A DNA stretch of 64,000 bases. Origin: Terriglobia bacterium. GTDB lineage: Bacteria; Acidobacteriota; Terriglobia; Terriglobales; Acidobacteriaceae. The notes under the pieces were generated by a model. It was not told the DNA's origin, searched no databases, and saw only the letters and a program-made list of their open reading frames with translations. Below are positions 4,270 through 42,579 of the stretch, piece after piece (position 1 is the first letter of the stretch; every line of letters begins with the position of its first letter). The stretch lies in the NCBI GenBank assembly GCA_032252755.1, contig JAVUPY010000024.1:62001-126000 (forward strand), read 5' to 3'. The position numbers and the translations under genes were made by a program.

Positions 4270-4270
4270 G

Positions 4271-9827: not shown

Positions 9828-9851
9828 GGATTCTAAAATCCTTGCTTGAGC

Positions 9852-13108: not shown

Positions 13109-13174
13109 ACTGGGAACCGGCAGATCGGAGCGGGCGAGAATCCTTAGCACGCTCGAAATTCGGTTCTGTCGCTT

Positions 13175-13204: not shown

Positions 13205-13436
13205 ACTCGGTGGAAGTGCTCTGAAACGGCTCGTCAACAGGCGGTCTCGAAGGCGTTCCAGCAGTAACATTTCCGCGCGAAGTGGTCATGCCAAAACCGC
13301 CCTAAGTGGCTATTGCGGTTTCCACTTCTGACGGGAATACTCTCGCAGGTGATTTCGGGCGGCAGTTCAAGCTGCTTTGGTCCAGTTATGTGGCCTACCA
13401 CGACCTGCCGCCCTCCCCATTCCACCGCATTGCGAT

Positions 13437-25518: not shown

Positions 25519-25605
25519 TCTTCTGTCGGCACATAAAGTGCTATTCCCGATCGCCGCCGCATGCGAATCCCCATGCATCGTCGCCGGTTGGACGGATGCA
25601 ATACG

Positions 25606-26691: not shown

Positions 26692-26773
26692 AAGGTCAGG
26701 CCAAAGGTCTGCTCGCAACTGAAAGATTGCCCGACTGAGAACGCCCACCCAGCATCACTGCTAAAATTCATCG

Positions 26774-27118
26774 GTGGCTCGTTTCCAGCAACAATGGCCT
26801 GCAGTCTCCCTCCTCTGCCTGACCTTCCTTCTGGCGGGGATTGCCCCTGCTGGAGGGCATACTTCTTCCATTACACCGCCGCACCCTGCGGTCGTAATTT
26901 CATTCGACACCGCAATCCTCCCTGCCGCAACCGTACATCGCGGCGTCACCGCCCTGGGTACTACTCTCAAGCGCCTCATTGCTGCGTTTCCGACCTGCTG
27001 CTATTCAGGTGGACTTCCCACTGCAAGAAGTTATCGCGAGCTAAACACGTTCAGGAAGTCTTATCTCGCGGCACGCGTTGCTCGGTGTCGCGCCCCGCCT
27101 TCACCTCCCTCCGTGTAG
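26774..27118 (+). CDS. possible small exported protein
   Basis: A 114-codon frame from GTG 26774 starts MARFQQQWPAVSLLCLTFLLAGIAPAGG, which could be a signal peptide, but the rest is rich in Arg, Pro, Ser and Cys and has no recognisable fold. No clear ribosome binding site is seen. If it is not a gene, 26692-27183 is a 490-base gap with nothing I recognise. Confidence 0.25.
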   Translation: MARFQQQWPAVSLLCLTFLLAGIAPAGGHTSSITPPHPAVVISFDTAILPAATVHRGVTALGTTLKRLIAAFPTCCYSGGLPTARSYRELNTFRKSYLAARVARCRAPPSPPSV

Positions 27119-27183
27119 TTGAAGCGAAAACAATCGGGACCTTTGCGTCCCCGCATTCACACGCACAAAATTCGAGGTGATTT

Positions 27184-27315
27184 ATGGAACCCAGCAGTAT
27201 CGTGGTGCTCGTGCTTACGCTTGCAGCTGTCGCGGGCCTGGTCTATGCCGAAATCAACTCTCGGCGAAACACCAAGACCCATAAGCAGCAACCCGGACAA
27301 CCCGAACCGAAATAG
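27184..27315 (+). CDS. 43-residue single-helix membrane peptide
   Basis: A short gene with good start signals: GAGGTGA lies 6 bases upstream of ATG. The product begins MEPSSIVVLVLTLAAVAGLVYAEINS, a single membrane helix, and ends in a hydrophilic tail rich in Lys, Gln and Pro (HKQQPGQPEPK). It lies 66 bases upstream of the CPA1-type antiporter gene on the same strand and could be its small regulatory partner, as with KdpF- or AcrZ-like peptides; that is inference. Confidence 0.6.
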   Translation: MEPSSIVVLVLTLAAVAGLVYAEINSRRNTKTHKQQPGQPEPK

Positions 27316-27381
27316 TCGATCGCAACCACCCGGCCCGGGCGGACTATCCTCTTCTCGGGCCGGCAACCTCGCTGGAGCACC

Positions 27382-28836
27382 GTGCCAAGCGTCGAGACCG
27401 TTCTCCTCATTGCCGCTTCTTTGTTCGTTGTCAGTATCCTGGCGAGCAAAGCCTCGGCACGTCTTGGCGTGCCCTCTCTTTTGCTGTTCGTCGGAATCGG
27501 AATGCTCGCGGGCTCCGACGGTCCCGGCGGCATTTACTTTGACTTTCCCTGGGTCACCCAGTTCGTAGGCGTCACCGCTCTTGCACTCATCCTTTTCGCT
27601 GCCGGCTTCGACACTCGCCTCAAAGTCGTTCGGCCGGTAATCGCTCCCGCCATCAGTCTCGCCACTATAGGAGTTCTCATCAGCACCGCGCTGGTAGGTC
27701 TCTTCATGGCATGGGTCTGGCAACTCCCACCGCTCCACGGCCTCCTCGTCGGCGCCATCATCTCTTCCACCGACGCAGCCGCGGTCATCTCCTTGCTTCG
27801 TTCCAGGAACTTATCTCTTCGCTCCGGTCTTCAGGAGGTCATCGAGTTTGAATCAGGTAGCAACGACCCTATGGCCGTTCTGCTCACCATTGTTCTGCTC
27901 CACCTCGTCACTTACGAAACCGCGAGCACGTGGCAAGTCGCATCGCTTCTGGTGCGACAAATCGTCATCGGACTGGCGGGCGGATTTGCACTTGGTCATG
28001 TCGGCGCAAAAATCATCAATCGCATCCGACTTGAATCCGAAGGCTTGTATCCCGTCCTCTCTGTGACTATCGCCCTGCTCTCATATTCCATCCCGGCCTC
28101 ACTCAGTGGCAGCGGCTTTCTCTCCGTCTACGTCGCCGGTCTAATCATCGGGAACAACAATCTCATCCATCGCAACAGTGTCCGCGTCTTCAACGATGGC
28201 ATCTCCTGGCTCATGCAGATAACGATGTTCCTCGTCCTTGGCCTGCAAGTATTCCCATCTCGGCTTCCTTCCGTAGCCGCCCCCGGCCTGCTCATCGCGA
28301 GCTTTTTAATGTTCGTCGCACGCCCCGTCAGCGTCTTCGCCGCCCTTCCCACTCGACGCTTTTCGTGGCGCGAAAGACTCTTCATCTCCTGGGCCGGACT
28401 TCGCGGCGCCGTCCCCGTCGTCCTCGCCACATTCCCTCTGCTCGCTGGAATGCGGGAGGCCGGAACCATTTTCAACGTCGTCTTTTTTGTCGCACTCACC
28501 TCGCTGCTCATCCAGGGAACCACGCTGCCGCTCGCCGCTCGCTTCCTTCATGTCGGCTCAACCCTCCTCACGAGACCATCCTTCCCCATCCAATTCAATC
28601 CAACCGAGTTCACCGACAAAGAACTCGTCGAGCTAACGATTCGCGCGGGAGCCCCAGCCGACGGCAAACGCATCATGGATCTCGGCCTCCCTGCCCGTAC
28701 GCTCGTTGTCCTTGTGGGACGCTCCAATCAGTTCGTGGCTCCCGAAGGCGGTACCGTTCTTCGCCAAGGAGACATCGCTTCCGTCCTCACCACGCGCGAA
28801 CATCTTTCAACCGTTCGCACCATCCTCGAAGGCTGA
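27382..28836 (+). CDS. CPA1-family cation/proton antiporter (NhaP2/CvrA-like)
   Basis: 484 residues: about 12-13 membrane helices (residues 5-385), then a cytoplasmic TrkA_C/RCK-C-like domain (residues 400-484: VELTIRAGAPADGKRIMDLGLPARTLVVLVGRSNQFVAPEGGTVLRQGD). Conserved motifs are LLFVGIGMLAGSDGPGG, ISSTDAAAVISLL, EFESGSNDPMAVLLT with the ND pair of the CPA1 transport site, and WAGLRGAVPVVLAT. NhaP2-type proteins with this tail exchange K+ or Na+ for protons. The GTG start is preceded by TGGAGCACC. Confidence 0.9.
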   Translation: MPSVETVLLIAASLFVVSILASKASARLGVPSLLLFVGIGMLAGSDGPGGIYFDFPWVTQFVGVTALALILFAAGFDTRLKVVRPVIAPAISLATIGVLISTALVGLFMAWVWQLPPLHGLLVGAIISSTDAAAVISLLRSRNLSLRSGLQEVIEFESGSNDPMAVLLTIVLLHLVTYETASTWQVASLLVRQIVIGLAGGFALGHVGAKIINRIRLESEGLYPVLSVTIALLSYSIPASLSGSGFLSVYVAGLIIGNNNLIHRNSVRVFNDGISWLMQITMFLVLGLQVFPSRLPSVAAPGLLIASFLMFVARPVSVFAALPTRRFSWRERLFISWAGLRGAVPVVLATFPLLAGMREAGTIFNVVFFVALTSLLIQGTTLPLAARFLHVGSTLLTRPSFPIQFNPTEFTDKELVELTIRAGAPADGKRIMDLGLPARTLVVLVGRSNQFVAPEGGTVLRQGDIASVLTTREHLSTVRTILEG

Positions 28837-28893
28837 TCACCGCCGGGCATAGTGGTGGGCCCACGTTCACCGCTCTTTGACTGACCAACACCT

Positions 28894-28940
28894 TTATGAC
28901 CCCAATCACCACCACCCGTGAGCCTTCTCACGGATTTCTC
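28894..28940 (+). promoter_or_regulatory. conserved 47-base upstream element, copy 2 (second Sel1 gene)
   Basis: Counterpart of 25472-25518, differing at three positions, with the identical hairpin CCGTGAG-CCTT-CTCACGG at 28916-28933. A shorter similarity (CCCGATCGCCG, then CGCCGGTT) continues down to both start codons, so the leader was duplicated together with the gene and the hairpin block has been kept nearly unchanged. Confidence 0.55.
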
Positions 28941-29042
28941 CACGGCGCGGCGTAATCTAGGCTCGTTAGGTTCTAATACTCCCGGTCGTCGTAGTACACG
29001 CAGCCCGATCGCCGTACCCTCGCCGGTTAGATGGATTCGCGC

Positions 29043-30170
29043 ATGGCGTTGCACCGCGGCCTCGTTCTCGGCTTTATTTCTCTTCTCTTGGCCGTTTCAT
29101 CGCAAGCTAAGCCGCTTTCTCCCGTCGAGCCTGCCGCCGTTTCCGAACAAAGCATCGATCAGCTTTTGCGCAATCTAAGCCCGCAAGACGTGCCCTCGCT
29201 CGCACAAAGAGCGGCTGCGGACGACATCGACGCGCAGTGCGTTTTAGGGGTTGCTTACTCCGACGGCCTAAGACTCCCGCACAATGACGGCGAAGGTCTG
29301 AAGTGGCTGCGTCTCGCCGCCGGCCACGGCCTGACTTGGGTGCAGAATCGCATCGGCTCCATGTATCACCGTGGCGAGGGCGTGCCTCGCGACGACAAGC
29401 AAGCAGTGAAGTGGTTCCGTATCGCCGCAGAACAGCACGATGCGCGCGCAGCCGCCAATCTCGCCTACATGTATCTCCAGGGCTACGGCGTCTCACAGGA
29501 TTACAAGGCGGCCGTGCGATGGTTCCGCATCGGTGCCGAACTCGGCTATGTCGCCGCTCAAAACAATCTCGGCGCTATGTATCACTATGGCCTCGGCGTG
29601 CGTCGCGACTACCCCGAGGCTCTCAAGTGGTATCGCGCGGCCGCGCAGCAGGGCTCGCCCACAGCCGCCGACGGCCTCGGCGTCATGTACGAACAGGGAT
29701 TGGGTGTAACGCAGGACTACGCCACCGCCATGCAATGGTTCCACCAGTCCGCCGCCGCGGGTGACGCCATAGCCATGGCTCAAATCGGGCAGCTATACGA
29801 CAAAGGCCTCGGCGTGCCCCGCGACTATCACCTCGCCTCCCACTGGTATCTCAAATCCGCCACACTCGGCTATGCCATGGCGCAATACCGCGTCGGCCAG
29901 ATGTACGCCAATGGCCTCGGCGTCCCTCTCGATTATGTATCCGCCTACGTCTGGTTCACCTCGGCCTTCCGCGGCGGTCTCGAGCCCGGACGCCGATCGG
30001 CCGCCGAGGTCGCCCAGATCATGACTCCCTCGCAGCGCCAGGAAGCCGAGGCCCGCCTCGCCACCGATGCTCCCATCTCCAATCCTACCGCCGCGATTCT
30101 CGAGATGAAGGGCAAGGCCAGGGGCCTTATCGCCAAGGAAAAGCTGCCAGATTCAACTTCCGCCCACTGA
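29043..30170 (+). CDS. secreted Sel1-repeat (TPR-like) protein, paralogue
   Basis: 375 residues. A signal peptide (MALHRGLVLGFISLLLAVSSQA) is followed by about eight Sel1 repeats clearly homologous, repeat for repeat, to the protein at 25606: for example AQNNLGAMYHYGLGVRRDYPEALKWYRAAAQQG. The C-terminal tail TPSQRQEAEARLA and KGKARGLIAKEKLP are also shared or matched by remnants after the first gene. ATG 29031 (MDSRMA) is an alternative start. Predicted periplasmic scaffold; partner unknown. Confidence 0.83.
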   Translation: MALHRGLVLGFISLLLAVSSQAKPLSPVEPAAVSEQSIDQLLRNLSPQDVPSLAQRAAADDIDAQCVLGVAYSDGLRLPHNDGEGLKWLRLAAGHGLTWVQNRIGSMYHRGEGVPRDDKQAVKWFRIAAEQHDARAAANLAYMYLQGYGVSQDYKAAVRWFRIGAELGYVAAQNNLGAMYHYGLGVRRDYPEALKWYRAAAQQGSPTAADGLGVMYEQGLGVTQDYATAMQWFHQSAAAGDAIAMAQIGQLYDKGLGVPRDYHLASHWYLKSATLGYAMAQYRVGQMYANGLGVPLDYVSAYVWFTSAFRGGLEPGRRSAAEVAQIMTPSQRQEAEARLATDAPISNPTAAILEMKGKARGLIAKEKLPDSTSAH

Positions 30171-30365: not shown

Positions 30366-32231
30366 TCACTTCAAGTGGTCGTGATCCCTGCCGTGGCAAG
30401 TCAACGTGCAGGATCCCCTGACGTAAGAAACCGTACCCTTGAAAGGTCCCACCACAGTCATATCGAAATTTATCAATCTCTCGCCCGTGAAGTTCGCGTT
30501 GCCGGACGGCACTCCGTGCGCGGAGTGACAAACCGAACAGGAAAATCCATCCTGCAGGTGGTTCGAGTGATGAGCGAAAGATTGATCGCTCATGATGCTG
30601 TTGAGGTTGTGGCATTTTGCGCAAAGTTCGAATGGACCATTACTTCCAGGTTGCAGGCGAGCATCACCGGGTTGCAGGTTCGTAACGAGATTGATAATGT
30701 CCGTGCCAGGCGCCGCGCTGGGTGCGACCTGGCTGATCAGGTAAGGACGCTCGAGAATATGGTCATAGGTCGACCCGTGAGGCCCGTTCGGTCCGTTCCC
30801 GCCAAATTCCCGGTTATTGTCACTGTTGTGACAGTCGCTGCAGAACAAGCGCGACCCCATCACCCTGGCTTGTGTACTGCCGCCGATGGACAGAATCCCT
30901 GTGCGGAGGCTTGGCTGGTTAGCCAATTTGGCATCCGTCATAACGGGATGTTTCGAAAGCGCCGTAGTACCGAACTGGTAGATCAAATTGAGTTGATCCG
31001 CTCCGGTGGCACCCCGGAGTGGAAGGTAGCCATAGACCGATGAAAGTATCTGCTTGCCGGTGCTGTAACCGTGACAGCGGAGGCAGATTTCGTATTGGTT
31101 TGCCGCAGACCCCGGAAGAAGAGTCCCGTCGGCAGCGACACCGGACACTCCATTTTGCGAGGGCCTCACACCCGGAGGCACATTGAAAGTTGTTGTAGGC
31201 TGCGCAGCGTGTCCGTTGTGACAATCAGCGCAACTCGCGTGACGATTCTGATCCGGTACGACGGACTCTCCCCCAGTGTGCGGATTTGTGTCAGTAGCAT
31301 ACGGATGGCCCTTTGTGCCCATCACGTCGACGACATTCAGGAGCGGCTGTAACAACACGGTTCCACCACCGTGGCACGTTGCACAGTTTTGGCTTACCGG
31401 ATCAAGGTTAGGAAGCAGTGTCGTACTGGTCCGCAGAAGACCCTTTTCCGCACCGGCGTTGTGCGGAACGTGGCACGCGATACAGGCAAATTCCGCAACT
31501 GTGTTGTATCCGCCCCAGCCGGCAGACGAATTCACCACAGCATTGCTTCTCGCGTGCGCGTTATTTGTCCACTGCGCCAGCGGATTGTTGATCGTATTGA
31601 CCGTCCTCGCGTTCACCGTGTGACAGGCAAGGCAGAGGCTTCCGTTGCTATTGTCCTTCACGAGGAAATTCGTGGAACGCTTATCGATTCGCTGATTGTG
31701 AGGTTCATGGCAACTGCCGCATTCGAGATTGCCCTTGATGAGCTTCACTGTCTGTGTCGCGTCGGCGGTCATTCCCGAAGAAGCCAGGCTCGGAACGAGG
31801 TTGGCGGCATCCTTCAGGGGGAGTTTCAGGCTGAACGGATGTGAGGCGGCAAGATTCGGAACCAAACCAGTCGACATTGTTTTCGACATCTGGATGCTTC
31901 CGTACGGTACTGTCTGTCCGGGTGCAACGGTTCCATCATGGCAGCTGAGGCAAAGAGAACTGTCCGCTCCGACCGCAGGCTGGACTTGCGTGTTCTGCAT
32001 TGTGTCGCTTTGGTACAGCTGCGGATACACTTCAGTTGAGAGTTGTTGACTCCACAGAGGCCCCTTGCTGACACCCGAATGCGGCGCATGGCAATAAAGA
32101 CATGCCGCCGACAAATTCCCTCGCAATTGCGACGAACCGTTCGAGAGGTCATGTGCACCAAGGACATCACTCGATTGCGAATATGCGAACGAAGCCATGC
32201 CCAAAATCAAGGCGAAGACAATGCCCTTCAC
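30366..32231 (-). CDS. exported multiheme cytochrome c (11 CXXCH plus one CX3CH)
   Basis: 621 residues with a signal peptide (MKGIVFALILGMASFAYSQ). Eleven CXXCH heme sites are visible (CLYCH, CLSCH, CGSCH, CLACH, CIACH, CATCH, CADCH, CLRCH, CSDCH, CAKCH, CSVCH) and the C-terminus has CTLTCH (residues 608-613), a possible CX3CH twelfth site. Several are followed by PH (CHAPHSG, CHEPHN, CHVPHN), typical of bis-His doubled-CXXCH cytochromes. The N-terminal 180 residues follow the layout of the tetraheme protein at 36272 (GAH...CHAPHSG...LW...CLSCHDG...HP). It is last in the locus, and its ATG overlaps the stop of the NHL gene. Likely periplasmic or extracellular electron carrier. Confidence 0.92.
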   Translation of the reverse strand: MKGIVFALILGMASFAYSQSSDVLGAHDLSNGSSQLRGNLSAACLYCHAPHSGVSKGPLWSQQLSTEVYPQLYQSDTMQNTQVQPAVGADSSLCLSCHDGTVAPGQTVPYGSIQMSKTMSTGLVPNLAASHPFSLKLPLKDAANLVPSLASSGMTADATQTVKLIKGNLECGSCHEPHNQRIDKRSTNFLVKDNSNGSLCLACHTVNARTVNTINNPLAQWTNNAHARSNAVVNSSAGWGGYNTVAEFACIACHVPHNAGAEKGLLRTSTTLLPNLDPVSQNCATCHGGGTVLLQPLLNVVDVMGTKGHPYATDTNPHTGGESVVPDQNRHASCADCHNGHAAQPTTTFNVPPGVRPSQNGVSGVAADGTLLPGSAANQYEICLRCHGYSTGKQILSSVYGYLPLRGATGADQLNLIYQFGTTALSKHPVMTDAKLANQPSLRTGILSIGGSTQARVMGSRLFCSDCHNSDNNREFGGNGPNGPHGSTYDHILERPYLISQVAPSAAPGTDIINLVTNLQPGDARLQPGSNGPFELCAKCHNLNSIMSDQSFAHHSNHLQDGFSCSVCHSAHGVPSGNANFTGERLINFDMTVVGPFKGTVSYVRGSCTLTCHGRDHDHLK

Positions 32232-33328
32232 TTCCGCGCTCCCTCCGCCCTTGTCCGGGGTCCAGAGTACTGGAACACCTGGATTCGGCGGTTATACGAA
32301 TCCACCACATAGACTCGGTCGCTGCCGTCAATAAACAAGCCGGCGGGCAGTTGGAACCGCCCCAACTGCGTGCCCTTGCCACCGAAGTCATAAAGCAGCA
32401 CACCCTGCCGATCAAAAACCTGAACATTACCCCTGAGTCCTTCGACCAGGTAAATGTGATCTTCTGAATCGATTGCTATGCCCTTGGGACGAAAGATCGT
32501 CCCTTCTGAATCGCCTATCGATCCGATCGCGCTTTGGAAATTGCCACTGCGATCGAAAATCTGCACACGGAAGTTCATCGCGTCCACGACTGCGATCATT
32601 CCGTTCCGGATCAACACCTCGGTTGGAAAATTGAATTCGCCATTGCCGGGGCCGCGCTTCCCGATCGTCCGCAAGACCTGCCCGGTCGGGTCCATCACGA
32701 ATACGCGATCCCGGAGCGTATCGGTGACGTAAATCTGCTCAGTTTCGTTATCTACCGCGATTCCGGTGGGACGCTTGAAGAATCCCTCGCCCTTAATGCT
32801 GCCTAGCACTCGCCGATACTTCCCGTTGGCATCGAAGACGAAAATCTTGCCGGCCTTGGAGTCGGTGACGTAAATGTTGTCTTTGCCATCGACAGCTACG
32901 CACTGCGGCTCGAGCATGCTGTCCTTGCCCTTTCCCTTGCGCTCGAGCAGTTTGTACTTGTGCTGTGCGGGATCCAGCAGGTGAACTCCTCCGATGCCCG
33001 GGTCCGTGACGATCATGCGTCCCCGCGAATCGACTGCTATGCTGTATGGCCTCAGCATCCTCTTGAAATCCGGTTCACCGGCAATCACATCCACCAGTTT
33101 GGTCCAGAAACCAGGCTTGGAGCGGACGTCGCGCTCCGAACTGAAGGTGCTCTGAAAACTCAGTTTCCGGCCGCCCTCCAGCAACAGATCGGGCGGGCGC
33201 GGCGCGGCCTTGGGCTTTTCACGACGGCCCGCTAAACAGGGCGCCTGCGCAAGCACGACTAGCACAACGGCCAGCGCTGCGTTTCGAGTCTTCGAATTCA
33301 GTAAGCCAATCAAAATACGTTGAACCAT
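32228..33328 (-). CDS. NHL-repeat six-bladed beta-propeller protein (copy 3 of the locus)
   Basis: 366 residues with a signal peptide (up to QAPCLA). NHL repeats cover about residues 90-355, each of the type 'P.gIAVD..g.iYV.D....rV.vFd..G' (for example RPTGIAVDNETEQIYVTDTLRDRVFVMDPTG). It overlaps the porin gene by 19 bases upstream and the cytochrome gene by 4 bases (ATGA) downstream, so it is translated as part of one operon. NHL propellers are common partners of extracellular cytochrome clusters and probably act as scaffolds or export helpers. Confidence 0.88.
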   Translation of the reverse strand: MVQRILIGLLNSKTRNAALAVVLVVLAQAPCLAGRREKPKAAPRPPDLLLEGGRKLSFQSTFSSERDVRSKPGFWTKLVDVIAGEPDFKRMLRPYSIAVDSRGRMIVTDPGIGGVHLLDPAQHKYKLLERKGKGKDSMLEPQCVAVDGKDNIYVTDSKAGKIFVFDANGKYRRVLGSIKGEGFFKRPTGIAVDNETEQIYVTDTLRDRVFVMDPTGQVLRTIGKRGPGNGEFNFPTEVLIRNGMIAVVDAMNFRVQIFDRSGNFQSAIGSIGDSEGTIFRPKGIAIDSEDHIYLVEGLRGNVQVFDRQGVLLYDFGGKGTQLGRFQLPAGLFIDGSDRVYVVDSYNRRIQVFQYSGPRTRAEGARK

Positions 33329-35154
33329 CGCGAGACCGTGAATGAATACGAATTGACTGTGACTCCGTTGGGGTTCGCAGCGGTAATCACCTGTGTTGTT
33401 CGGTTGTAGTTTCCGATCAGCGACATTTTTCGAACCCGGTACTCTATCCGGGCGGCATAACGGTCGCCGTTGTTCATCGAATTTACAAGGTTCAGCAGTG
33501 ACGACGTGTTGCTCTTCACCTTGGAGTAGTACCCGGTCAGAGTCATTCTCGACACGGGGTATGCGCTCCCGCTGATCGTATAGCTGCGCCCGTCGACCGT
33601 GACGATATCGTTGGTAAACACTCCACCGATCGGGGTTGGAACAAGGTCTCCGGAGTACGTCAGAACCGCGGTGCCATGTGCCTGCGAGTACGCTCCCGAC
33701 ACGCTGTACCGGTGCCAGCCGATGCCGCTAGAGAACGTTTCGGATCTGTTGCCTTCGCCTTCGCGCTGCGTTAGCGCACTGTGAGAGATACGGGCCGAAG
33801 CATTCCAGTAGCTGTCCGGTGAGAGTTTGCGGCGGACATACCCGCCATAGCTGTAATTGCTCGTCGAGTACATCGCAACCAGCGTTTGCACATTTTGCGA
33901 GTAGGAGAAATCGGCGGCTGTGTCCCAATGACCGAACTTGCGGGTCATGCCTACGTTGCCCACAAATCCAAGACTGCTGTTGCCTTCTTTGTTGGCTGTA
34001 TCGACCAGGCTGAAGCTGAATCGCAATGTTCCGAATAGCGGACGAGCGTATCGCAGGTTGACTGTCCCCCCATACTGCGTATCCGCGTACTGCCGGTTGT
34101 CGTACCACTGTTCACGGTGTGTGAGGTTCCCGACCAATGAAATCTGGTTGGTTACTCTGAAGTACCCCATGTTGGTGGACACAAGCGACTTCGCATCCTG
34201 TGAGTGCATGACAATGGGAGCGCCATTATCGGGGTTAACAACATCGCGTGCCACATATTCGAGAAGGTTGCCGTTGTATCGGAGATCACTCGAAAAGGTG
34301 AACCTGCTCCACGGCGTGATGGATCCACCGACGGACGCGGTATTGCTGCTTGTCGTTCCGGACCTGTGCATACCGTCGGTGTAATTCGTGTGGGTAAACG
34401 ATGACCAGAAAGACCCCGACAGCGGTATGTTGCGAGTCGCGGTCACGCCGTAGGTATTGGTTCCGACCTTGTCGTAACTGGCGCCGCCTAGAAAATCGGG
34501 GAAACTGGCGGTCGTATTCAGGTGCGCGAAGTAAGCGCCCATCAGGAAGCCCCAGCGGGTGTAGGAAGAATTGAGATCGAAATCCCGGTTCAGGGATTTC
34601 GATTCGCCGGGTGCTCCAATGATGGACTGCTGGTTCGAACGCGAAGAATAACTGGCGGTCAGTGTTGGCAAGTCTGAAAACAGAGCGCTCCAGGTGATCC
34701 CATATCCCTGCGACGAACCATCACTGCTGAGCGAGCCAAAACCCGGCAAGCCATAGTTCCCGTTGCTGCTGATGTCCTTGGAATAGAAGACCGTACCCGG
34801 GAAATGGCTACCAGTGAAAAAACTCGCAGAACTCGAAAACCCGGAGGCATTCGCAATCGACTGCATGTCGCTATTGGTCTGCGCGCGGTTGTAGTACGGC
34901 ATCAACGTGAAGGAAAGAAAGTTCGGGTGATAGTAGTACCCGGTGAGGGTACCCGTTCCCGCAAAACTCGTGGAATGACTCGACCCTATATCGCCCCCTG
35001 AAACACCCGCGTAGCCGAATCCGACATTTCCCGAAAGATTGATCTTCGTGTTTTCTCCAACTTCAAGTTGCGCAAAAGCAGGCACGCCCGGAACGATCAC
35101 GAGTACCAGCAGAAGAGCCAGGCTAGCCAGTTGCGATTTTCGACGTCGACTCAT
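33310..35154 (-). CDS. outer-membrane beta-barrel protein, candidate electron conduit porin
   Basis: 614 residues with a signal peptide (up to VPAFAQ). The whole mature region alternates hydrophobic and polar residues with frequent Tyr, Ser, Thr, Asn and Gly turns, and ends in SRWFNVF, the aromatic terminal residue used by the BAM complex. By length and composition it would form a barrel of 20 or more strands. It has no CXXCH. Placed between the prolyl isomerase (12-base gap) and an NHL gene followed by a multiheme cytochrome, it matches the porin part of porin-cytochrome conduits such as MtrB/OmbB, although I see no specific sequence similarity and rely on context. Confidence 0.75.
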   Translation of the reverse strand: MSRRRKSQLASLALLLVLVIVPGVPAFAQLEVGENTKINLSGNVGFGYAGVSGGDIGSSHSTSFAGTGTLTGYYYHPNFLSFTLMPYYNRAQTNSDMQSIANASGFSSSASFFTGSHFPGTVFYSKDISSNGNYGLPGFGSLSSDGSSQGYGITWSALFSDLPTLTASYSSRSNQQSIIGAPGESKSLNRDFDLNSSYTRWGFLMGAYFAHLNTTASFPDFLGGASYDKVGTNTYGVTATRNIPLSGSFWSSFTHTNYTDGMHRSGTTSSNTASVGGSITPWSRFTFSSDLRYNGNLLEYVARDVVNPDNGAPIVMHSQDAKSLVSTNMGYFRVTNQISLVGNLTHREQWYDNRQYADTQYGGTVNLRYARPLFGTLRFSFSLVDTANKEGNSSLGFVGNVGMTRKFGHWDTAADFSYSQNVQTLVAMYSTSNYSYGGYVRRKLSPDSYWNASARISHSALTQREGEGNRSETFSSGIGWHRYSVSGAYSQAHGTAVLTYSGDLVPTPIGGVFTNDIVTVDGRSYTISGSAYPVSRMTLTGYYSKVKSNTSSLLNLVNSMNNGDRYAARIEYRVRKMSLIGNYNRTTQVITAANPNGVTVNSYSFTVSRWFNVF

Positions 35155-35166
35155 GAGGATTTCCCG

Positions 35167-36195
35167 CTACAAGATCTGGATCTTCGCCTTGCTTCGTAGT
35201 TTCTTGCCTAACGCTGATCGAAGTTGTTCGAGCTTTTCGTTCTCCATGCTCGCTTTCAGCTTGTCTTTCACCTCCGCGAACGGAACCGTTCCCGATGGAA
35301 TGTGTTCTTCCAGCCTGACGATCGTGAATGCGTTTCCAAGCTGGATGAGGTCGCTGACGTCTCCGGGTTTCATGGCCGCCACGACCTTTACGACCGGTGG
35401 AGGCAGTTGGCTTGCCGGAACTTTCTTGTGATCGCCCATGTTGACCCGGTAGTCGTCCTCGGAAATCTTTTCGGCCAGTAATCCGAAATCCCGGTAGGTC
35501 TTGGCCAATTTCGCCTGCTTTACTGCTTCATCCGCTCTCTTTCGCGCTTCTTTCAGCGTCGCCGGGCTTTCGTTGGGCGGAAGGATCGAGATGCTCTGAA
35601 AGTGAATGGTCTCGGCTCGCTGAAAAAGAAGCGGATTCTTGTCGTAGTAGGCCTTGACCTGTACCGGGGTCACCTTTGCCTTGTTGGTGATCTCCGCTTT
35701 CATGATTGCGTCGATCAGGAACGAGCGGCGAATCTTCTCGCGCAATTCCGCCACCGAACCGTGCGCTTCTTCTTTCAAAAATGCTTTGTAGGCCGATTCG
35801 TCTGCGAACGTCTTTCGGAATTCTCGCTCCGCTTTTCTAAGACGCTCCGCAGGAATAACCATCTTGCGCCCCTTCGCTTCCTGGTAGAGCAACTCTTCGA
35901 AAACGATCATCTGCAGTGCGCCCTGCCGAATCTCGGGCTCCAGGTTCTTTGGAATCTTTCCATTGTGCTGTTGCGCGTATGGGAACATCGCGAACATTTC
36001 GCGGACCAGGTCACGATCCGTCAGCAATGTGCCGTTGACGCTTACGACTGGTTTCCCGGCAGCGCTCAAGGTCATCTCGGCCATGGGAGCAGCAGAAGCA
36101 TTTGGCTTGAGGTTTGTGGGGGCGTGCGAAGCAACCTGTGCCGAGGCAAACAACGAGTTCAGGATTAATAGGGTAAGTGCGCAGTGTTTGTACAT
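35167..36195 (-). CDS. periplasmic SurA/PrsA-like peptidyl-prolyl isomerase
   Basis: 342 residues with a signal peptide (MYKHCALTLLILNSLFASAQ). A SurA_N-like helical chaperone domain covers about residues 50-190 (VSVNGTLLTDRDLVREMF...EELLYQEAKGRKM...REKIRRSFLIDAIM), then a parvulin-like domain (residues 200-300; VPASQLPPPVVKVVAAMKPGDVSDLIQLGNAFTIVRLEE). AGAGGAACG precedes the ATG. Its position between the tetraheme cytochrome and the outer-membrane barrel suggests it folds or escorts one of these. Confidence 0.85.
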   Translation of the reverse strand: MYKHCALTLLILNSLFASAQVASHAPTNLKPNASAAPMAEMTLSAAGKPVVSVNGTLLTDRDLVREMFAMFPYAQQHNGKIPKNLEPEIRQGALQMIVFEELLYQEAKGRKMVIPAERLRKAEREFRKTFADESAYKAFLKEEAHGSVAELREKIRRSFLIDAIMKAEITNKAKVTPVQVKAYYDKNPLLFQRAETIHFQSISILPPNESPATLKEARKRADEAVKQAKLAKTYRDFGLLAEKISEDDYRVNMGDHKKVPASQLPPPVVKVVAAMKPGDVSDLIQLGNAFTIVRLEEHIPSGTVPFAEVKDKLKASMENEKLEQLRSALGKKLRSKAKIQIL

Positions 36196-36224
36196 CGTTC
36201 CTCTTAACTGACTGAAAGTCGTGT

Positions 36225-36261
36225 CAAAATCCTTGGGGGAGGGAACCTCTCCTCCCCCAAG
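36225..36261 (-). terminator. strong hairpin and T-run after the tetraheme cytochrome gene
   Basis: An 11-bp perfect stem (CTTGGGGGAGG / CCTCCCCCAAG, 36232-36261) with an eight-base loop, followed in the minus direction by ATTTTGAC. It lies 10 bases past the tetraheme stop and upstream of the prolyl isomerase gene. It can act as a partial terminator or 3' stabiliser, giving more tetraheme mRNA than downstream mRNA. Confidence 0.8.
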
Positions 36262-36271
36262 CCGAGACCAA

Positions 36272-37306
36272 CTAGAACTGCGTGGTCACCGTCATGATTC
36301 CGGACCCTTCGTTCGAACCACCCGCGCCGGTGAAATGGCACTGGCGGCAGAACTGGGTGGCGGACGAAGCCGTGGTCGGATTCGTGACCGGAGCACCCGG
36401 GTTATACGGAGCCGTAATGAAGAAGTAAGTCGGATACGTACCCTTTACGCCCGCTGCCGTTCCGCTGAACGGATACATCGAGTGCGGAGTGTGGCAGGTG
36501 GTGCAAACGAGATAGGCAGTCGTGGCATCCGCTGCGCCGGTCGGGATCACAACCCCGGTGGTGCGGCCGCCCGATGGGTACTTCGTGGTCGACTGCGTGA
36601 TGTTGAACGCACCGTAGTGGGCATAGAAAGCCAGGAACGCTGTATCGCCATCCTTCGGCTGCAGGCAGTCAACATTCGTGCCGTGGCTGCTGCAGGTTCC
36701 GGTGGATGCCGCAAAGAGCGTGAGGTGGCTCGCCACTCCTACTGCGCCGAGGGTTGCCTTCGGGCCGATTGGGTGGTCGTTGTTGTAGTTGCCGGCTGCG
36801 GTTCCGTCGGCGCCAAGCAGCGTCGGAATCGGCAGGCTGCCATAGGTGGCAGGCAGTAATCCCGTTGACTGCTCGTACGACTGGTTGGTCATCATCGCGC
36901 CTTTTGCGATGTTGCCGTCGTGGCAACTCAGGCACATCATGACGCCGGTGATCACGGCTTCCTGCTCCGGATCGGTCGTCAACATGCTCCCAGGCAACGT
37001 GATGTCATAAGCACCCTCTGCGCCAAAGTTAAAGGTCTTGGTGTAAAGGGGACCGAGGTCCTCACCCCAGAGAGCGAGGTCACCGGTGTTGGGGTCGGTT
37101 ACGGCACCGCCTGTTGCAGCAGCGTTTCCGCCATTGCCACGAGCACCGCTGTGGGGGGCATGGCAGCCAACGCAACCGCGACCGCCGTTCTGGTGCGCGC
37201 CGAGTTTATCCACCCCGACGATACCAGTGCCCGATGTATAAGTTTGCGCAACCGCGAGACCTGCGAAAAGCAAAATGCAGAGCGCAACGATTGTCAGTTT
37301 CTTCAC
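36272..37306 (-). CDS. tetraheme c-type cytochrome, OmcE-like candidate nanowire subunit
   Basis: 344 residues from GTG 37306, which has AGGAGG nine bases upstream; a TTG at 37336 is less likely. Signal peptide cleavage after LAVAQ gives a mature protein of about 320 residues. Four heme sites: CVGCH (45-49), CLSCH (125-129), CTTCH (268-272) and CRQCH (320-324). Other histidines available as second axial ligands include H38 (LGAHQNGG), H52 (CHAPHSG), H178 (NDHPIGPK) and H275 (CHTPHS). The order GTGI...AH...CHxPH...LW...CLSCHDG...HP agrees with OmcE-type cytochromes, which polymerise into extracellular filaments. Filament formation is inference. Confidence 0.9.
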   Translation of the reverse strand: MKKLTIVALCILLFAGLAVAQTYTSGTGIVGVDKLGAHQNGGRGCVGCHAPHSGARGNGGNAAATGGAVTDPNTGDLALWGEDLGPLYTKTFNFGAEGAYDITLPGSMLTTDPEQEAVITGVMMCLSCHDGNIAKGAMMTNQSYEQSTGLLPATYGSLPIPTLLGADGTAAGNYNNDHPIGPKATLGAVGVASHLTLFAASTGTCSSHGTNVDCLQPKDGDTAFLAFYAHYGAFNITQSTTKYPSGGRTTGVVIPTGAADATTAYLVCTTCHTPHSMYPFSGTAAGVKGTYPTYFFITAPYNPGAPVTNPTTASSATQFCRQCHFTGAGGSNEGSGIMTVTTQF

Positions 37307-37401
37307 TGTATTAATCCTCCTGATGTTTCTTGCCAACTACTCGAAGCCCTGAGGTGTCTGGACCCCGCTTTGACTGACATCAACCAGCCAAAATCTATCC
37401 A

Positions 37402-38727
37402 CTACGGTTCCCTCGGTTGCGGCGATGCCACCGCCGGAGTTCCATGTCCTGTCTCCGGATTTGCCTTAGGGCTTGCGGCCTTCTGCAGGGGTTTACTCTG
37501 CTCTTCGCCATCCCTGCGTAGCTTTTCGGCCCTTGCTTCCTCGTCCGTCGTGTATCGGAAAATCTGCACTCGCCCGGGATACTGCTCGGACGTAAAAACT
37601 CGATTGTTCTTGTCGATCGCCAGGCCCGCCAGCGCGCTGAACTGACCGGGCAACAGGCCATTGCCGCCCATGTAAAGCAACAAGCGTCCTTGCTGGGTGA
37701 AGACCTGGAGACGATCTTGGACCCCGTCGGCTACCCAGACGTGTCCATCGCTATCGATGGCGATTCCCTTGGGGCGCGCGAAATATCCGGGACCGTCACC
37801 CGGCTTGCCCCAGGTTCGGATGAAGTTGCCGTCAGCATCAAAGATTTCGACCCGGTCGTTCAGAGTGTCGGAAACGTAAAGGTTCCCGTCGCTGTCGACG
37901 GCCACATTGCTTGGCTTGGCAAAGTCCCCTGGGGTTGTCAGCGTGTGCTGCTTTCCGCCTGTCCCTATCTTGCGAATCAGCTTGTAAGGAGGATCGGCGT
38001 CGAAAACGAAAACCTGGTCCAGTTCCGCGTCGGGAACATAGAGAAACCGATTCTCGTTGTCTATCGCCAAACCGCCTGGATCTGCCAGGCCACTGCTGAA
38101 ACTGCCTTCAACCTTGAAGTCTGGGGTGAAAACGATAATGCGATGATTGGTACTGTCAGAAACAAACAACCGGTCTGAGTCATCAATCGCCAGTCCGATG
38201 ATCGTTCCAAATCGCGCGTGAACCCCGTTCTTGATCATCTCGAACTCGCCGGTTTCAGGGTTGACGACGAAAATGGCCGACACCTTCCGGTCCGCTATGT
38301 ACAGGCGGTTCTTCGAATCAACCGCCATTCCGTACGGCATGATTAACTGGAAACGAGGTTTTTCCGCTGCAGATGTGTTGCCGACCGATATCCCTGCCAG
38401 TCGGTCCATCCACGATGCCTTTTGCGCCGGCTTATTTTGTGTCGTCTCTTTGAATCTCTCGCCGGAGAAATAGTTGATGTAACGGACACGGGTTATCGCC
38501 GGTGGATTTGGCCAGACGATCTTCGAATAGTCCAGCACGTCAAGGAAGGTCTTGTGCTGTTCGGCGGCCTGTTGTTTTTGTTTCTTTTTGTCTTTCTTGT
38601 CTTTCTTTTCGCCGTAAAGCTGGGGCGGTGTCGCTAAGAGGAGAACGAATATCGATATGACCGCCGCCAGGATTGCAATGAAACGCCCGACCTTCTGCAC
38701 ACTGCTGGACATCGTCAAGTCTCCCAT
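37402..38727 (-). CDS. NHL-repeat beta-propeller protein (copy 2 of the locus)
   Basis: 441 residues; an N-terminal hydrophobic segment (FIAILAAVISIFVLLLATPP) is followed by a highly charged stretch (KKDKKDKKKQKQQ) and NHL repeats from about residue 130 to 390, for example PSNVAVDSDGNLYVSDTLNDRVEIFDADGNFIRTWG. The C-terminal 50 residues are Lys/Glu/Pro-rich. ATG 38727 overlaps the cytochrome TAA by one base (TAATG); an alternative ATG at 38712 has GGGAG upstream. It may be anchored in the inner membrane by the N-terminal helix. Confidence 0.88.
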   Translation of the reverse strand: MGDLTMSSSVQKVGRFIAILAAVISIFVLLLATPPQLYGEKKDKKDKKKQKQQAAEQHKTFLDVLDYSKIVWPNPPAITRVRYINYFSGERFKETTQNKPAQKASWMDRLAGISVGNTSAAEKPRFQLIMPYGMAVDSKNRLYIADRKVSAIFVVNPETGEFEMIKNGVHARFGTIIGLAIDDSDRLFVSDSTNHRIIVFTPDFKVEGSFSSGLADPGGLAIDNENRFLYVPDAELDQVFVFDADPPYKLIRKIGTGGKQHTLTTPGDFAKPSNVAVDSDGNLYVSDTLNDRVEIFDADGNFIRTWGKPGDGPGYFARPKGIAIDSDGHVWVADGVQDRLQVFTQQGRLLLYMGGNGLLPGQFSALAGLAIDKNNRVFTSEQYPGRVQIFRYTTDEEARAEKLRRDGEEQSKPLQKAASPKANPETGHGTPAVASPQPREP

Positions 38728-40139
38728 TACTGCCCCCCCAGGTTTTTATGGCAGCTCGCACAGAACGCCATATTGTTGGCCTGGTCTTTCACAAGCAGCC
38801 CAGGTTGTGCTGAGGAATGCGGCTGATGGCAGGTTAGGCAATTGATTGGAACTCGAACTTTGGACACATCGTTCGGGTCCATCTGGTCAACTACGGGGTG
38901 ACGGTCCACCGGATGGCCCACTCCGTACCTGAGAGGTAGCCGCGCTACCTTTGTGAAGTAATCGTCCGGCAACTTAACCTGACCGTTGAAAATCGTCACC
39001 AGGTGTTCATTCTCGATGCGCATCGGTTTTGCATCGGGACCGTGGCATTCAAGGCACAGCGCGTTCGGCGTTGCTGCCCGCAGCAGGTGCGCATTGTCTC
39101 CGCCGTGCGGTGTGTGACAGGTTGCGCATCCCTGTTCGAACGCGGGCTGGTGCAGATATTTCTTCTTGTGCTGTTCCGCCTGGTCAGCGTGGCATGCGAG
39201 ACAAGCATTCACCGGATCCGGCTGCAGGAAGCCCGGAGTCTTACCGGCGTGCGGGTTGTGACACGCAGTGCACTCGCCCAGCGCTCCCGGATGCTGCACC
39301 TTCGCTTTTTCAATCTGTTCCTGCTTATCGCTGTGGCAGGTTAAGCAGATGGACTTCGCGTCCTCGGCCGTCAGTACCACTTTTCCGTCCTTCGCCGGCG
39401 AGTGGCACGTGTCGCACGACTTGTCCGCAAACGGCTGGTGTGTGAACTTCTGCATCAGCTTCGGGCGATCCGACTGGTGCGGGTTATGACACTGAATGCA
39501 GTTTGCGGTTCCGAACGGCTGCCCCTGGTGCGCCTTCACGAGGTTGGAATCGCTTACGTCATGACAGTCGAGGCAGAGGGCCGGAGTGGCTTTTGTGAGG
39601 TGGTAATCAAATTCCTGCTTGCCCGCTTCACCTGTTTTGTGAATAACGTGGCAGGTTTCGCATCCGCTGTCGAGTGCAGCGTGGCGGCTACCCTTTTCCG
39701 GGACGTTCTCGCCCTGGGTGTGACACGCGAGGCACAGATTCGCCTGCTTATCCCCAGAAGTTAGTTTGAGTAACTGGTTCTTGTTTGCGGATGTGTGTGG
39801 ATCGTGACACTTGAGGCAGTCGCGGACGGCCGGAGGATGGATGCGCCCCTTCAATTCGGTGGGGTTCTTGTCTGCGTGGCACGAAAAACAGAGCGCCTGC
39901 GGAGTCGTGGTCGTTAGTTTGATACGGGTTACATCGCGGTTAACGCGGATCTCATGACAGCTGGTACAACCGGTCTGTACGGCGGAGTGCACGAATGCCG
40001 CTTTGGCTTTGTCGGCGTGGCACTCTATGCATTTCGCGGAATCGGTATTCTTATCGAGAGGAACAGGATGCTTCCCAGCAAAAAGCAGAACACTCCCGAA
40101 GATAACCGCCACAAAGACCAATGAATGCAAGACCTTCAC
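38727..40139 (-). CDS. 16-heme c-type cytochrome
   Basis: 470 residues, signal peptide (VKVLHSLVFVAVIFGSVLLFAG). Sixteen CXXCH sites occur at a spacing of about 25-30 residues, many in doubled-CXXCH layout with CHxPH (CHDPHT, CHNPHQ, CHNPHA, CHTPHG, CHQPHS), which indicates bis-His low-potential hemes stacked along an elongated protein. The start is GTG 40139, preceded by GAGGAG. It is co-translated with the NHL gene downstream. A likely periplasmic or outer-surface electron wire feeding the locus's other cytochromes. Confidence 0.93.
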   Translation of the reverse strand: MKVLHSLVFVAVIFGSVLLFAGKHPVPLDKNTDSAKCIECHADKAKAAFVHSAVQTGCTSCHEIRVNRDVTRIKLTTTTPQALCFSCHADKNPTELKGRIHPPAVRDCLKCHDPHTSANKNQLLKLTSGDKQANLCLACHTQGENVPEKGSRHAALDSGCETCHVIHKTGEAGKQEFDYHLTKATPALCLDCHDVSDSNLVKAHQGQPFGTANCIQCHNPHQSDRPKLMQKFTHQPFADKSCDTCHSPAKDGKVVLTAEDAKSICLTCHSDKQEQIEKAKVQHPGALGECTACHNPHAGKTPGFLQPDPVNACLACHADQAEQHKKKYLHQPAFEQGCATCHTPHGGDNAHLLRAATPNALCLECHGPDAKPMRIENEHLVTIFNGQVKLPDDYFTKVARLPLRYGVGHPVDRHPVVDQMDPNDVSKVRVPINCLTCHQPHSSAQPGLLVKDQANNMAFCASCHKNLGGQ

Positions 40140-40297
40140 TGCAAATGCTCCTCAACACCAAAGTGCCAGAACCCACAGGTAAATGCATTCGCATGGCCCT
40201 TCAAAAGGCAAGCTTTATAAATCCAGCTAAGTATTTGATTTCATTGGATAAAGCTCGGGACAGTCACATAATGGACAAAGAGAGAAGCGTCACAATG

Positions 40298-40397
40298 GTG
40301 GGGGATTTGAAACAGTGCCGCAAATGGGAATTAGCCAAATCCCCCACTAAAGATTTGTCCCTGAAATGGTGCATTTCGGCCATCAGAGCAGCCGAAA
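40298..40397 (-). promoter_or_regulatory. structured intergenic segment upstream of the 16-heme cytochrome
   Basis: Inside the 303-base gap between the TPR stop and the cytochrome start are a 12-bp perfect inverted repeat (GTGGGGGATTTG at 40298 and CAAATCCCCCAC at 40336) and two smaller hairpins. These are GAAATG-GTG-CATTTC (40363-40377) and TTTCGGC...GCCGAAA (40374-40397), which share bases and so exclude each other. No T-run follows on the minus strand. A regulator site or a leader RNA switch are possible. Confidence 0.45.
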
Positions 40398-40442
40398 GTC
40401 CCCCATCCTCTGGGGAATGCGGACCAATGGGGTGGCTTGGTC

Positions 40443-41075
40443 TTATTTCGCGGCCAATTGCTGTTTGGCTGCCTCAATGAGGTGAGTGACCTGATCTTTG
40501 TGCTCGAAATTCGGGTTCAGTTTGAGGAGTTCCTCCCACGCGGCCAGGGCCCCGGCAACATCATCCTTCCCTTTCCACTTGATGATGCCGATGTTCAGGA
40601 GCGTGCCCGCGTGTTTCGGATCGTATTTCAGGTTCTGCTGAAGTTCCGCCAGAGCGCCGTCGGGATCGCCACCGTAAAACAGGCAAGAGGCTAGATTGGC
40701 GCGCACGACATAGTTCTTAGGGTCAAATTCGAGGGCCTTCCTGAAGTATCCGGCAGCTTCTTCGAACTGGTGAGTTCTCATGTAGATGCTGCCTGTCTGG
40801 ATGAGCAGTTGAGAGTCGTTGGGCTTCTGTTTCAGCTTGGCGACAAGCGGTTCAGCCTGTTTGTCCGCCATATGCTTCATCTGCTCAAGGGTAGGCATAG
40901 CCCGGTCGGGTACGGCTTGTGCCGGTTGAACAATGGGGGCTGCGGCAACAGAAGGGGGCTTTGACCCGCGAATCATGTATCCGAGGGGAAGGCCTGCCAG
41001 GAGGCAGATCGCTGCCAATCCATACGCCTGTGCCGGGCCCCAACCGGTGTTTGAACTGTCAATGTCTCTGGCCAT
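40443..41075 (-). CDS. membrane-anchored TPR protein
   Basis: 210 residues with an N-terminal membrane helix (YGLAAICLLAGLPLGYMI) and three to four TPR units from about residue 85 (NDSQLLIQTGSIYMRTHQFEEAAGYFRKALEFDPKNYVVRANLASCLFYGGDPDGALAELQQNLKYDPKH). The layout resembles the C-terminal TPR part of CcmH/NrfG, which helps load apocytochrome c for heme attachment, and this fits its place in a locus encoding about 31 CXXCH sites. There is no heme-lyase motif, so the role stays inference. Confidence 0.82.
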   Translation of the reverse strand: MARDIDSSNTGWGPAQAYGLAAICLLAGLPLGYMIRGSKPPSVAAAPIVQPAQAVPDRAMPTLEQMKHMADKQAEPLVAKLKQKPNDSQLLIQTGSIYMRTHQFEEAAGYFRKALEFDPKNYVVRANLASCLFYGGDPDGALAELQQNLKYDPKHAGTLLNIGIIKWKGKDDVAGALAAWEELLKLNPNFEHKDQVTHLIEAAKQQLAAK

Positions 41076-41325
41076 TGCCTCTTACGACTCCCTGCCGTCA
41101 TCTGGTCGCACTGCTGCAGCAAAGGAAAGAAGCATTCCAGCTACCAAAGCCCAATCAAGGATCGGTTTGATAACTCTATCGAAATAGACAACTTACAATG
41201 AAAGACAAAGAAAAATGGAAATCGATTGTGCAGAATGACGGGGCATTCGACTCAGCGGGAGGGTCGTTTCACGCTGCAGGGGGAGGATGTCCGCGTTACA
41301 CCTGTTCGGGGAGCGGCTCTGGAGC

Positions 41326-42579
41326 CTACGAACCGGACTCCAGAGAACTCAACTTGAACATCTGCACACGCCGATTCAGCGTATCGGCGACGTACAAGCG
41401 CCCGGCCGAATCGATGCATAGGCCGGCTGGACTGCTGAAATCTCCTGCGTTGATACCTGCCTGCCCAAGAATTCCCAGGGGCTTTCCGTCCGATGTCAGT
41501 ATCTCTACCCGAGAGCCAACAGGATTGCTGAGGTAGATGTTGCCGGCAGCGTCCAATGCGATCGCAGTGGCGTGCACCTGCGGCGAATTTTCCTGGTTGG
41601 GAATGGGGAAACCGCCGAGGACATCGCCGTCAGGACTGAACACCAGAATGCGCGACCCAGAATTTTCGAGCACAAAAAAACGATTTTCGCCAACTGCGAT
41701 CTGAAGTGGGTTGACGAACCGGCTGTTTTTGTCACGGAGTCCGCCGATGCGTCGAATCAGGCGACCGGACAGATCAAGAATGACGAGTTCGTGCATGGGT
41801 GCGTCGAGCACATAAATACGTTTGAGTTTCCGGTCGACCGCGATAGCTTCCGGATACTGAAACATGCTCTCGTCGGCAATCATGCCAATACTGCGCACGT
41901 AGTAACCCTGCGGATCGAATACCAGCACTAGACCCTTCTGGCTGTCGGCGACGTAAATATTATCCTCAGCGTCCACCGCCACGCTCGAGGGAGCGCGGAG
42001 ACGAAGTTGCGGACCGCCGGCGATCCGAAACGAGCTACGCCCCTTCGGTTCCAGCACGTGGACCGCATGTTGCTGCGGATCGGCAATGATGAGCCTGCCC
42101 CGCGAGTCCGTTGTCACCATCGTGGGCGATCTCAGAACCCACTCACGGCCATAAGCGAGGGTAACGAGGTCGTCCCTGAGATTGCCGAAGAAGGTGTGTG
42201 CTCTTAAGCGTCGACTGGCATGTCCGGGCGGCTCGAAGTTTTCGACGACATCCTCGATCGAGTGCAGATCCATGAATTCCGGAGCAGGTCGCTTGTTCGA
42301 GGCATACGGTGAAATGAACCCAGGGGACGCGCCGCTGTTGCGTCCGAGAGTCCTTCGCGCTTTTCTAAAGGTACCGTCTGGCGCATAGAGGCCAGCAAAA
42401 ACTGGAAGCTTGAACCTTGGTGTGATTACAGAGCCATCCGCAGGTGCTGGCGAGGAAGTCGCCGCGGCAACAGTTGAGAATGCGTGATCGGCCAATTGCT
42501 GAGAAGCAGAATCCTCTATACAGAACAGAATGCTGAAAACACAACACACACCGACACGGCAAAATGATCGAAGCATCAC
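41326..42579 (-). CDS. NHL-repeat beta-propeller protein (copy 1, first gene of the locus)
   Basis: 417 residues with a signal peptide (MMLRSFCRVGVCCVFSILFCIEDSAS), an unstructured segment to about residue 110 and NHL repeats to the end, for example PSSVAVDAEDNIYVADSQKGLVLVFDPQG and FSSPAGLCIDSAGRLYVADTLNRRVQMF. GGAGG lies upstream of the start (GTG at 42579 or ATG at 42576). A 250-base gap without a recognised gene separates it from the TPR gene. It is paralogous to the propellers at 37402 and 32228. Confidence 0.87.
   Translation of the reverse strand: MMLRSFCRVGVCCVFSILFCIEDSASQQLADHAFSTVAAATSSPAPADGSVITPRFKLPVFAGLYAPDGTFRKARRTLGRNSGASPGFISPYASNKRPAPEFMDLHSIEDVVENFEPPGHASRRLRAHTFFGNLRDDLVTLAYGREWVLRSPTMVTTDSRGRLIIADPQQHAVHVLEPKGRSSFRIAGGPQLRLRAPSSVAVDAEDNIYVADSQKGLVLVFDPQGYYVRSIGMIADESMFQYPEAIAVDRKLKRIYVLDAPMHELVILDLSGRLIRRIGGLRDKNSRFVNPLQIAVGENRFFVLENSGSRILVFSPDGDVLGGFPIPNQENSPQVHATAIALDAAGNIYLSNPVGSRVEILTSDGKPLGILGQAGINAGDFSSPAGLCIDSAGRLYVADTLNRRVQMFKLSSLESGS

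Follow-up and report, generated by a model that had tools for sequence, protein, structure and literature searches.

We wanted to know whether a run of multiheme cytochrome genes in an acidobacterium (Terriglobia bacterium, assembly GCA_032252755.1) encodes a machine that carries electrons across the cell envelope to an acceptor outside. The locus lies at positions 30366-42579 of a 64,000-nucleotide stretch of contig JAVUPY010000024.1 (positions 62,001-126,000, forward strand), the whole of which is referred to here as the window. A check of the open reading frames found nine that are open, all on the minus strand, with overlaps at 32228/32231 and 33310/33328 and one base in common at 38727; the heme-binding motif CXXCH occurs 16 times in a 470-residue protein, 4 times in one of 354 residues and 11 times in one of 621 residues, or 31 times altogether. 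Pfam families at the locus are the multiheme cytochromes, NHL, a PPIC-type rotamase with a SurA-like N-domain, and TPR. These counts bear out a first-pass annotation made from the sequence letters, which had listed the nine same-strand genes, the overlaps and the 31 motifs; its three NHL proteins, TPR protein and SurA/PrsA-like isomerase were recovered by Pfam and its 614-residue barrel by AlphaFold2. That annotation had also read the locus as an electron conduit joined to an OmcE-type filament, and gene linkage, profile matches to OmcE and MtrA, a predicted MtrB-like fold and the parts list of the Uet system support this reading as a strong inference. Overall, the cluster is real and conserved, and it is well explained as an OmcE/Uet-type extracellular electron transfer cluster with a distinct Terriglobia make-up. 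The conserved module comprises seven genes, read from 40139 down to 30366:

38727..40139, minus strand: C16, a 470-residue 16-heme cytochrome and candidate periplasmic wire (16 CXXCH motifs, MtrA profile match).
37402..38727, minus strand: NHL441, an exported six-bladed NHL propeller (Pfam NHL, 2.4e-29) that adjoins C16 in most loci.
36272..37336, minus strand: D4, a 354-residue tetraheme cytochrome of a divergent OmcE family and candidate filament subunit (profile matches, histidine columns, gene slot).
35167..36195, minus strand: PPI342, a SurA/PrsA-like parvulin prolyl isomerase (Rotamase_2, 5.8e-17; SurA_N_3, 3.1e-9).
33310..35154, minus strand: OMB614, a 614-residue outer-membrane beta-barrel predicted to have an MtrB-like fold and 28 strands, with a C-terminal F (AlphaFold2, Foldseek, VIA-align).
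32228..33328, minus strand: NHL366, an exported NHL propeller whose gene overlaps the barrel and A11 genes (Pfam NHL, 3.1e-25; 53-60% identity to homologues).
30366..32231, minus strand: A11 (also A11/12), a 621-residue cytochrome with an OmcE-like N-domain (hemes 1-4) followed by seven CXXCH motifs and one CX3CH, a candidate adaptor between conduit and filament.

Do these genes belong together? Six further loci from the phylum, one of them in the genome of the window itself, share both set and order, except where C16-NHL441 or D4 is shifted or missing. A scan of GTDB returned 80 named loci, all in Acidobacteriota and most titled Terriglobia or Acidobacteriaceae, among them a record of Occallatibacter savannae AB23 with the five-gene core. 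When linkage was counted over the 45 GTDB loci with enough flank, the core of D4, isomerase, barrel, NHL protein and A11 was contiguous in every one, C16 was nearby in 42, and all seven genes formed one run in 35. Because the core order recurs in 45/45 independent loci at median protein identities of 33-65% (five core proteins and C16), we conclude that the order is not due to chance; homologues scattered without linkage, which the first-pass annotation had named as the sign of a wrong reading, were not what we saw. Heme counts are near-fixed among homologues, with 16 in 49/49 C16 proteins, 4 in 72/73 D4 proteins and 11 CXXCH in 79/80 A11 proteins. Of 399 genomes drawn from the class, 48 gave a match in a profile search for the barrel.

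The filament part of the reading turns on D4. Searched against the sequences in the PDB, the D4 profile matched 9yuq_N (E=4e-8) over most of its length, the sole match below 0.02, and in profile-profile comparison (hhalign) D4 scored 99.2% (E=1.9e-19) against OmcE-like tetrahemes and 99.6% against the A11 N-domain. As CXXCH motifs alone can yield matches, we also compared D4 with the equally CXXCH-rich 16-heme family, which scored 25-34%. In one alignment, the histidines of the four CXXCH motifs of OmcE and its four distal histidines are kept in every D4 row, and the same eight are kept in the A11 N-domains bar one truncated row; the distal columns 90, 117, 267 and 374 are histidine in OmcE, 9yuq and all aligned D4 rows. 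In a separate D4 alignment, the second distal histidine is missing in 1/17 proteins (a paralogue in locus L072). The N-terminus of D4 is signal-like and ends AxAQ. D4 and the OmcE filament protein (Geobacter sulfurreducens, PDB 7TFS; related 9yuq) thus share a tetraheme plan of four CXXCH motifs and four distal histidines in the same order, and we conclude that D4 is, as judged from its sequence, an OmcE-family protein. It differs in being about 100 residues longer, with insertions. Moreover, A11 of the Terriglobia cluster carries an OmcE-like domain in one chain with a C-terminal part of 8 hemes. In seven loci (L020 at 8187-9083, L046, L053, L065, L079, L084 and L095), we note a second D4 tetraheme paralogue, oppositely oriented, just after A11.

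The interfacial heme of OmcE takes a histidine ligand from the adjacent subunit (PMC12954529), and, with all the OmcE distal histidines present, the ligand set needed for polymerization appears to be kept in D4. This bears on an alternative in which barrel, C16 and A11 carry electrons across the outer membrane and D4 stays monomeric at the surface, as a reductase or as an electron store, rather than forming a wire. The length of D4 speaks for it: D4 proteins have 300-350 residues, which include long insertions and a tail beyond the fourth heme, whereas canonical OmcE homologues have about 200-240 and end at heme 4, and filament formation is not readable from sequence. However, D4 keeps the four distal histidines of OmcE, of which one must serve the inter-subunit heme of the filament, and D4 sits in the OmcE slot, so that we regard a conduit without a wire as rather unlikely.

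That D4 occupies this slot is seen in other acidobacterial families, where the A11 profile finds both 11-heme proteins of full length and tetrahemes that stand alone (about 200-250 residues, matching positions 6-215), the two kinds being encoded together. In locus L193, the order is 9-heme protein, NHL, OmcE-like protein (4e-25), prolyl isomerase, barrel, NHL and 11-heme protein, as in the window; in L192 and L198, the C16 slot holds a 21-heme protein; L185, L186 and L195 have OmcE-like protein, NHL, 5-heme protein, barrel, NHL, 11-heme and 13-heme proteins; and in L191 a 42-heme protein is encoded near an OmcE-like gene. The periplasmic-wire slot hence ranges from 5 to 42 hemes, the OmcE slot is constant, and A11 is frequent. 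Because canonical OmcE homologues fill the D4 slot in L193 and L192, D4 is best described, again by sequence, as the form that the OmcE slot takes in Terriglobia. Further, the same two loci, with this order and an OmcE homologue in the tetraheme position, show that a statement in the first-pass annotation, that filament clusters often carry NHL and prolyl isomerase genes, holds within Acidobacteriota. We also note C16-related proteins of about 1000 residues with 42 CXXCH motifs (L191, 11457-14501; L199, 1123-4401) in genomes of family f23 that have OmcE-like genes.

How could such a filament be joined to the cell? Among all PDB sequences, a profile built from 25 A11 proteins matched OmcE (7tfs_A, E=4e-26) and 9yuq (3e-21), the OmcE matches spanning profile positions of about 7-212, which are the first four hemes. 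In the alignment, OmcE stops at its fourth CXXCH and A11 continues from there with an 8-heme part. A CX3CH motif stands near the C-terminus of every A11 compared, in the family of the window and in at least 12 other acidobacterial families, and C608, C612, H613 and H617 are invariant in the 25-row A11 alignment; rows without CX3CH in the cross-family comparison proved to be the 21-heme proteins of the C16 slot and not A11. A twelfth heme agrees with the listing for the UetJ cluster, which is given as "11 and 12" motifs once CX3CH and CX4CH are counted (PMC10734462). Going by these motifs, the A11 "undecaheme" probably binds 12 hemes, not 11. Because A11 runs on where OmcE ends, A11 could begin a chain but could not be an inner link of it; we take it that the next filament subunit docks at the end of OmcE after heme 4 and, likewise, that a histidine crosses the interface there. 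A11 may therefore be a built-in anchor of OmcE-type nanowires, with its OmcE-like N-domain as the first link and its C-terminal part, with 8 hemes, seated within the MtrB-like barrel or upon it, and the module may be a complete wire kit that is widespread in soil Terriglobia, a proposal that we put forward tentatively and at less than even confidence. A tblastn search of plasmids with A11 gave no matches.

For the conduit itself, the C16 homologue profile matched chain 6r2q_A among the PDB sequences (E=3.5e-25). Entry 6r2q is the Mtr complex according to Foldseek, and chain A, which is mislabelled in the PDB sequence table, we take to be MtrA; at the level of this profile match, C16 resembles MtrA. 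C16 scored 182.2 bits against the DmsE family TIGR03508, under its cut-off of 192.2, and 49 bits against TIGR03507 (MtrC/OmcA; cut-off 209), which A11 and D4 did not match. Membership in the Mtr/Mto family was considered and dropped, with C16 under the DmsE cut-off and carrying 16 hemes and MtrC not found. The 614-residue barrel matched no Pfam or NCBIfam family, and its profile matched no PDB sequence. Its AlphaFold2 model (76 homologues) has 28 strands, with a mean pLDDT of 78 and a pTM of 0.67. Foldseek ranked MtrB (6r2q_B) first in the PDB with E=1.5e-10, and VIA-align placed MtrB first, tied with other barrels, at Z 14.0 and a root-mean-square deviation of 9.9 over 390 residues. A match to a transporter family unrelated to cytochromes, foreseen in the first-pass annotation as evidence to the contrary, did not appear. 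The model is in favor of a wide barrel in the outer membrane, with possible room for a cytochrome, kinship to MtrB not being proven by fold alone. Compared with MtrCAB, Mto and DmsE conduits, the Terriglobia cluster has in common a periplasmic cytochrome related to MtrA and a barrel predicted to be MtrB-like in fold but has 16 hemes rather than 10 and 28 predicted strands rather than 26, is without MtrC, and adds NHL, prolyl isomerase and OmcE-type parts.

The closest published parts list is that of Uet. Uet clusters hold an 11-heme and a 4-heme cytochrome, a prolyl isomerase, a barrel and NHL proteins together (PMC10734462) and are reported from Candidatus Tenderia, some Gallionellaceae and relatives of Leptothrix (PMC10734462, PMC13386937). 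Compared by that published list alone, Uet of Ca. Tenderia electrophaga and Gallionella and the Terriglobia module have in common an extracellular tetraheme, a prolyl isomerase, a barrel, two NHL proteins and an 11(-12)-heme cytochrome; the three periplasmic trihemes of Uet so listed (UetDEG) are not in the Terriglobia module, which has a single 16-heme MtrA-like cytochrome in their place. PCC3 of Sideroxydans and Gallionella also combines a porin with two large multiheme cytochromes (PMC10734462), but of these the periplasmic one has 21-27 hemes and the outer one 10-35, an inner-membrane protein accompanies them, and the source names no NHL, prolyl isomerase or tetraheme parts.

From the computed genes, heme counts and linkage, the OmcE homology of D4 and the A11 N-domain, the similarity of C16 to MtrA and the predicted barrel fold, we infer where the proteins reside, that they form a complex and a filament, and that electrons flow outward. 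We consider it likely that the seven genes encode one extracellular electron transfer machine, in which C16, barrel and A11 make a conduit to a D4 filament. Electrons from the inner-membrane quinol pool would enter C16 in the periplasm and cross the outer membrane via the MtrB-like 28-strand barrel holding a cytochrome; the 12-heme A11 would be the outer adaptor, its OmcE-like N-domain docking on the filament, and D4 would be the repeating unit of that filament, contacting mineral, humic matter or another cell. The prolyl isomerase may assist the folding or export of barrel and cytochromes, and the NHL propellers may be scaffold or surface-binding parts.

Several observations weigh against this machine. 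Compared directly, D4 and OmcE show weak similarity (E about 1), the link between them running through intermediates; the AlphaFold2 model of D4 (17 sequences) is poor, with a pLDDT of 48, and gave no fold match, and for these two reasons we make no structural claim for D4. Other large barrels follow MtrB within about 30-fold in Foldseek E-value, TonB-dependent receptors at 4e-9 and weaker, and the barrel resembles both these receptors and LptD. What OmcE filaments do physiologically is a matter of dispute even in Geobacter (PMC11077965), and Uet is regarded as taking up electrons, not exporting them. An inner-membrane quinol oxidase is not in the cluster. This last point, together with the three NHL proteins and the chaperone, could favor a system of envelope cytochromes and propellers that binds metal, deals with redox stress or mediates adhesion, its cytochromes acting as electron buffers. 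MtrA- and MtrB-like parts and OmcE homologues in fixed order are, however, hard to explain without trans-membrane electron flow, and we judge such a non-respiratory role very improbable.

The remaining question is the direction of flow. The same machine might run inward, with Fe(II), Mn(II) or another cell as the electron source for the respiratory chain, as the accounts of Uet in cathode-oxidizing Ca. Tenderia and iron-oxidizing Gallionellaceae would suggest (PMC10734462, PMC5371394). The genome of the window does encode heme-copper oxidases, but the RuBisCO large subunit was not found in it, and the module is spread across many soil and peat Terriglobia, which are generally heterotrophs. We therefore think inward flow unlikely; conduits can be reversible, so that it would not exclude outward flow. 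The genome has two further conduit-type clusters (L147, C27:10001-29000, at 3438-14038; L148, C52:68001-84000, at 4272-9013), each with a DmsE-family decaheme above the TIGR03508 cut-off, a NapC/NrfH-like protein of 6 hemes and a barrel (858 and 735 residues) whose relation to GSU2204 is weak; L147 additionally encodes 11- and 19-heme proteins. With two DmsE-type clusters, the heme-copper oxidases and no RuBisCO large subunit found, a heterotroph disposing of electrons fits, and the organism is most likely a facultative heterotroph with outward electron flow. A second complete copy of the seven-gene module lies elsewhere in the same genome (L017, contig C51 138501-158500, at 4128-13921), flanked by a TPR gene and by ResB and CcsB, which family scans assign to system II cytochrome c biogenesis. 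The two A11 copies are 45% identical, which may reflect either an old duplication or separate acquisition. As a separate observation, Rieske-like, cytochrome b-like and 9-heme cytochrome genes stand in a row in this genome (L149, C4:3001-17000, at 5984-8776), with a similar trio beside the A11 cluster in L193; they are possibly a variant bc complex with a multiheme subunit.

Two of the nine genes lie upstream of the module:

40443..41075, minus strand: TPR210, a membrane-anchored TPR protein, CcmH/NrfG-like (PF23914 TPR_CcmH_CycH, 1.6e-9, below cut-off).
41326..42579, minus strand: NHL417, a third NHL protein (Pfam NHL, 1.5e-22).

The nine-gene unit of the first-pass annotation therefore stands in part: its seven genes at 30366-40139 are conserved, the TPR gene is a frequent neighbor (a homologue is near the module in 29/45 loci), and NHL417 lies outside the module, never being the best-matching family for any neighbor gene in related loci. 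Among related loci, 29 have ResB-like neighbors and 20 have CcsA/CcsB-like ones. Scans for promoters and terminators found sites no more numerous than in shuffled sequence, and for this reason we do not claim operon limits from them. An exosortase/exopolysaccharide reading, raised by weak EpsD and PrsT family matches, was dropped, the scores being far under the cut-offs and the neighbors being cytochromes. Elsewhere in the window, positions 44344-47664 encode a 1106-residue exported protein with six IPT/TIG domains, adjoining an RsgA GTPase gene, and positions 25561-30170 hold a Na+/H+ antiporter-type transporter with TrkA_C between two Sel1-repeat proteins, an apparent duplication around the transporter.

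Related systems have been reported in the phylum and beyond: MtrCAB in Bryobacterales-type Acidobacteriia (PMC8805035), porin-cytochrome complexes in Holophaga (PMC7399161), undecaheme-centred complexes in cave metagenome-assembled genomes (PMC13264449) and, in Geoalkalibacter, NHL and MtoA-like genes next to an OmcE homologue (PMC12016550). In the literature reached, primary Uet and OmcE papers excepted, we found no description of the Terriglobia cluster, of a Uet-OmcE link or of a fused OmcE-domain adaptor, and we do not claim priority. What is new here is the Terriglobia variant, the invariant C-terminal CX3CH in the "undecaheme" and the fused OmcE-like domain as a testable candidate for a filament anchor. 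A 2025 review calls the anchoring of nanowires and their electrical joining to the outer membrane an open question and finds evidence tying porin-cytochrome complexes to nanowires lacking (PMC12307469). The cluster described here encodes, next to one another and in conserved order, a barrel of conduit type, a wire resembling MtrA, a tetraheme of the OmcE family and a fusion of an OmcE-like domain with an 8-heme part, which gives specific proteins and residues to test. Soil acidobacteria are usually regarded as aerobic heterotrophs; the cluster predicts that they may also respire extracellularly, which would bear on how iron and carbon turn over in soil and peat.

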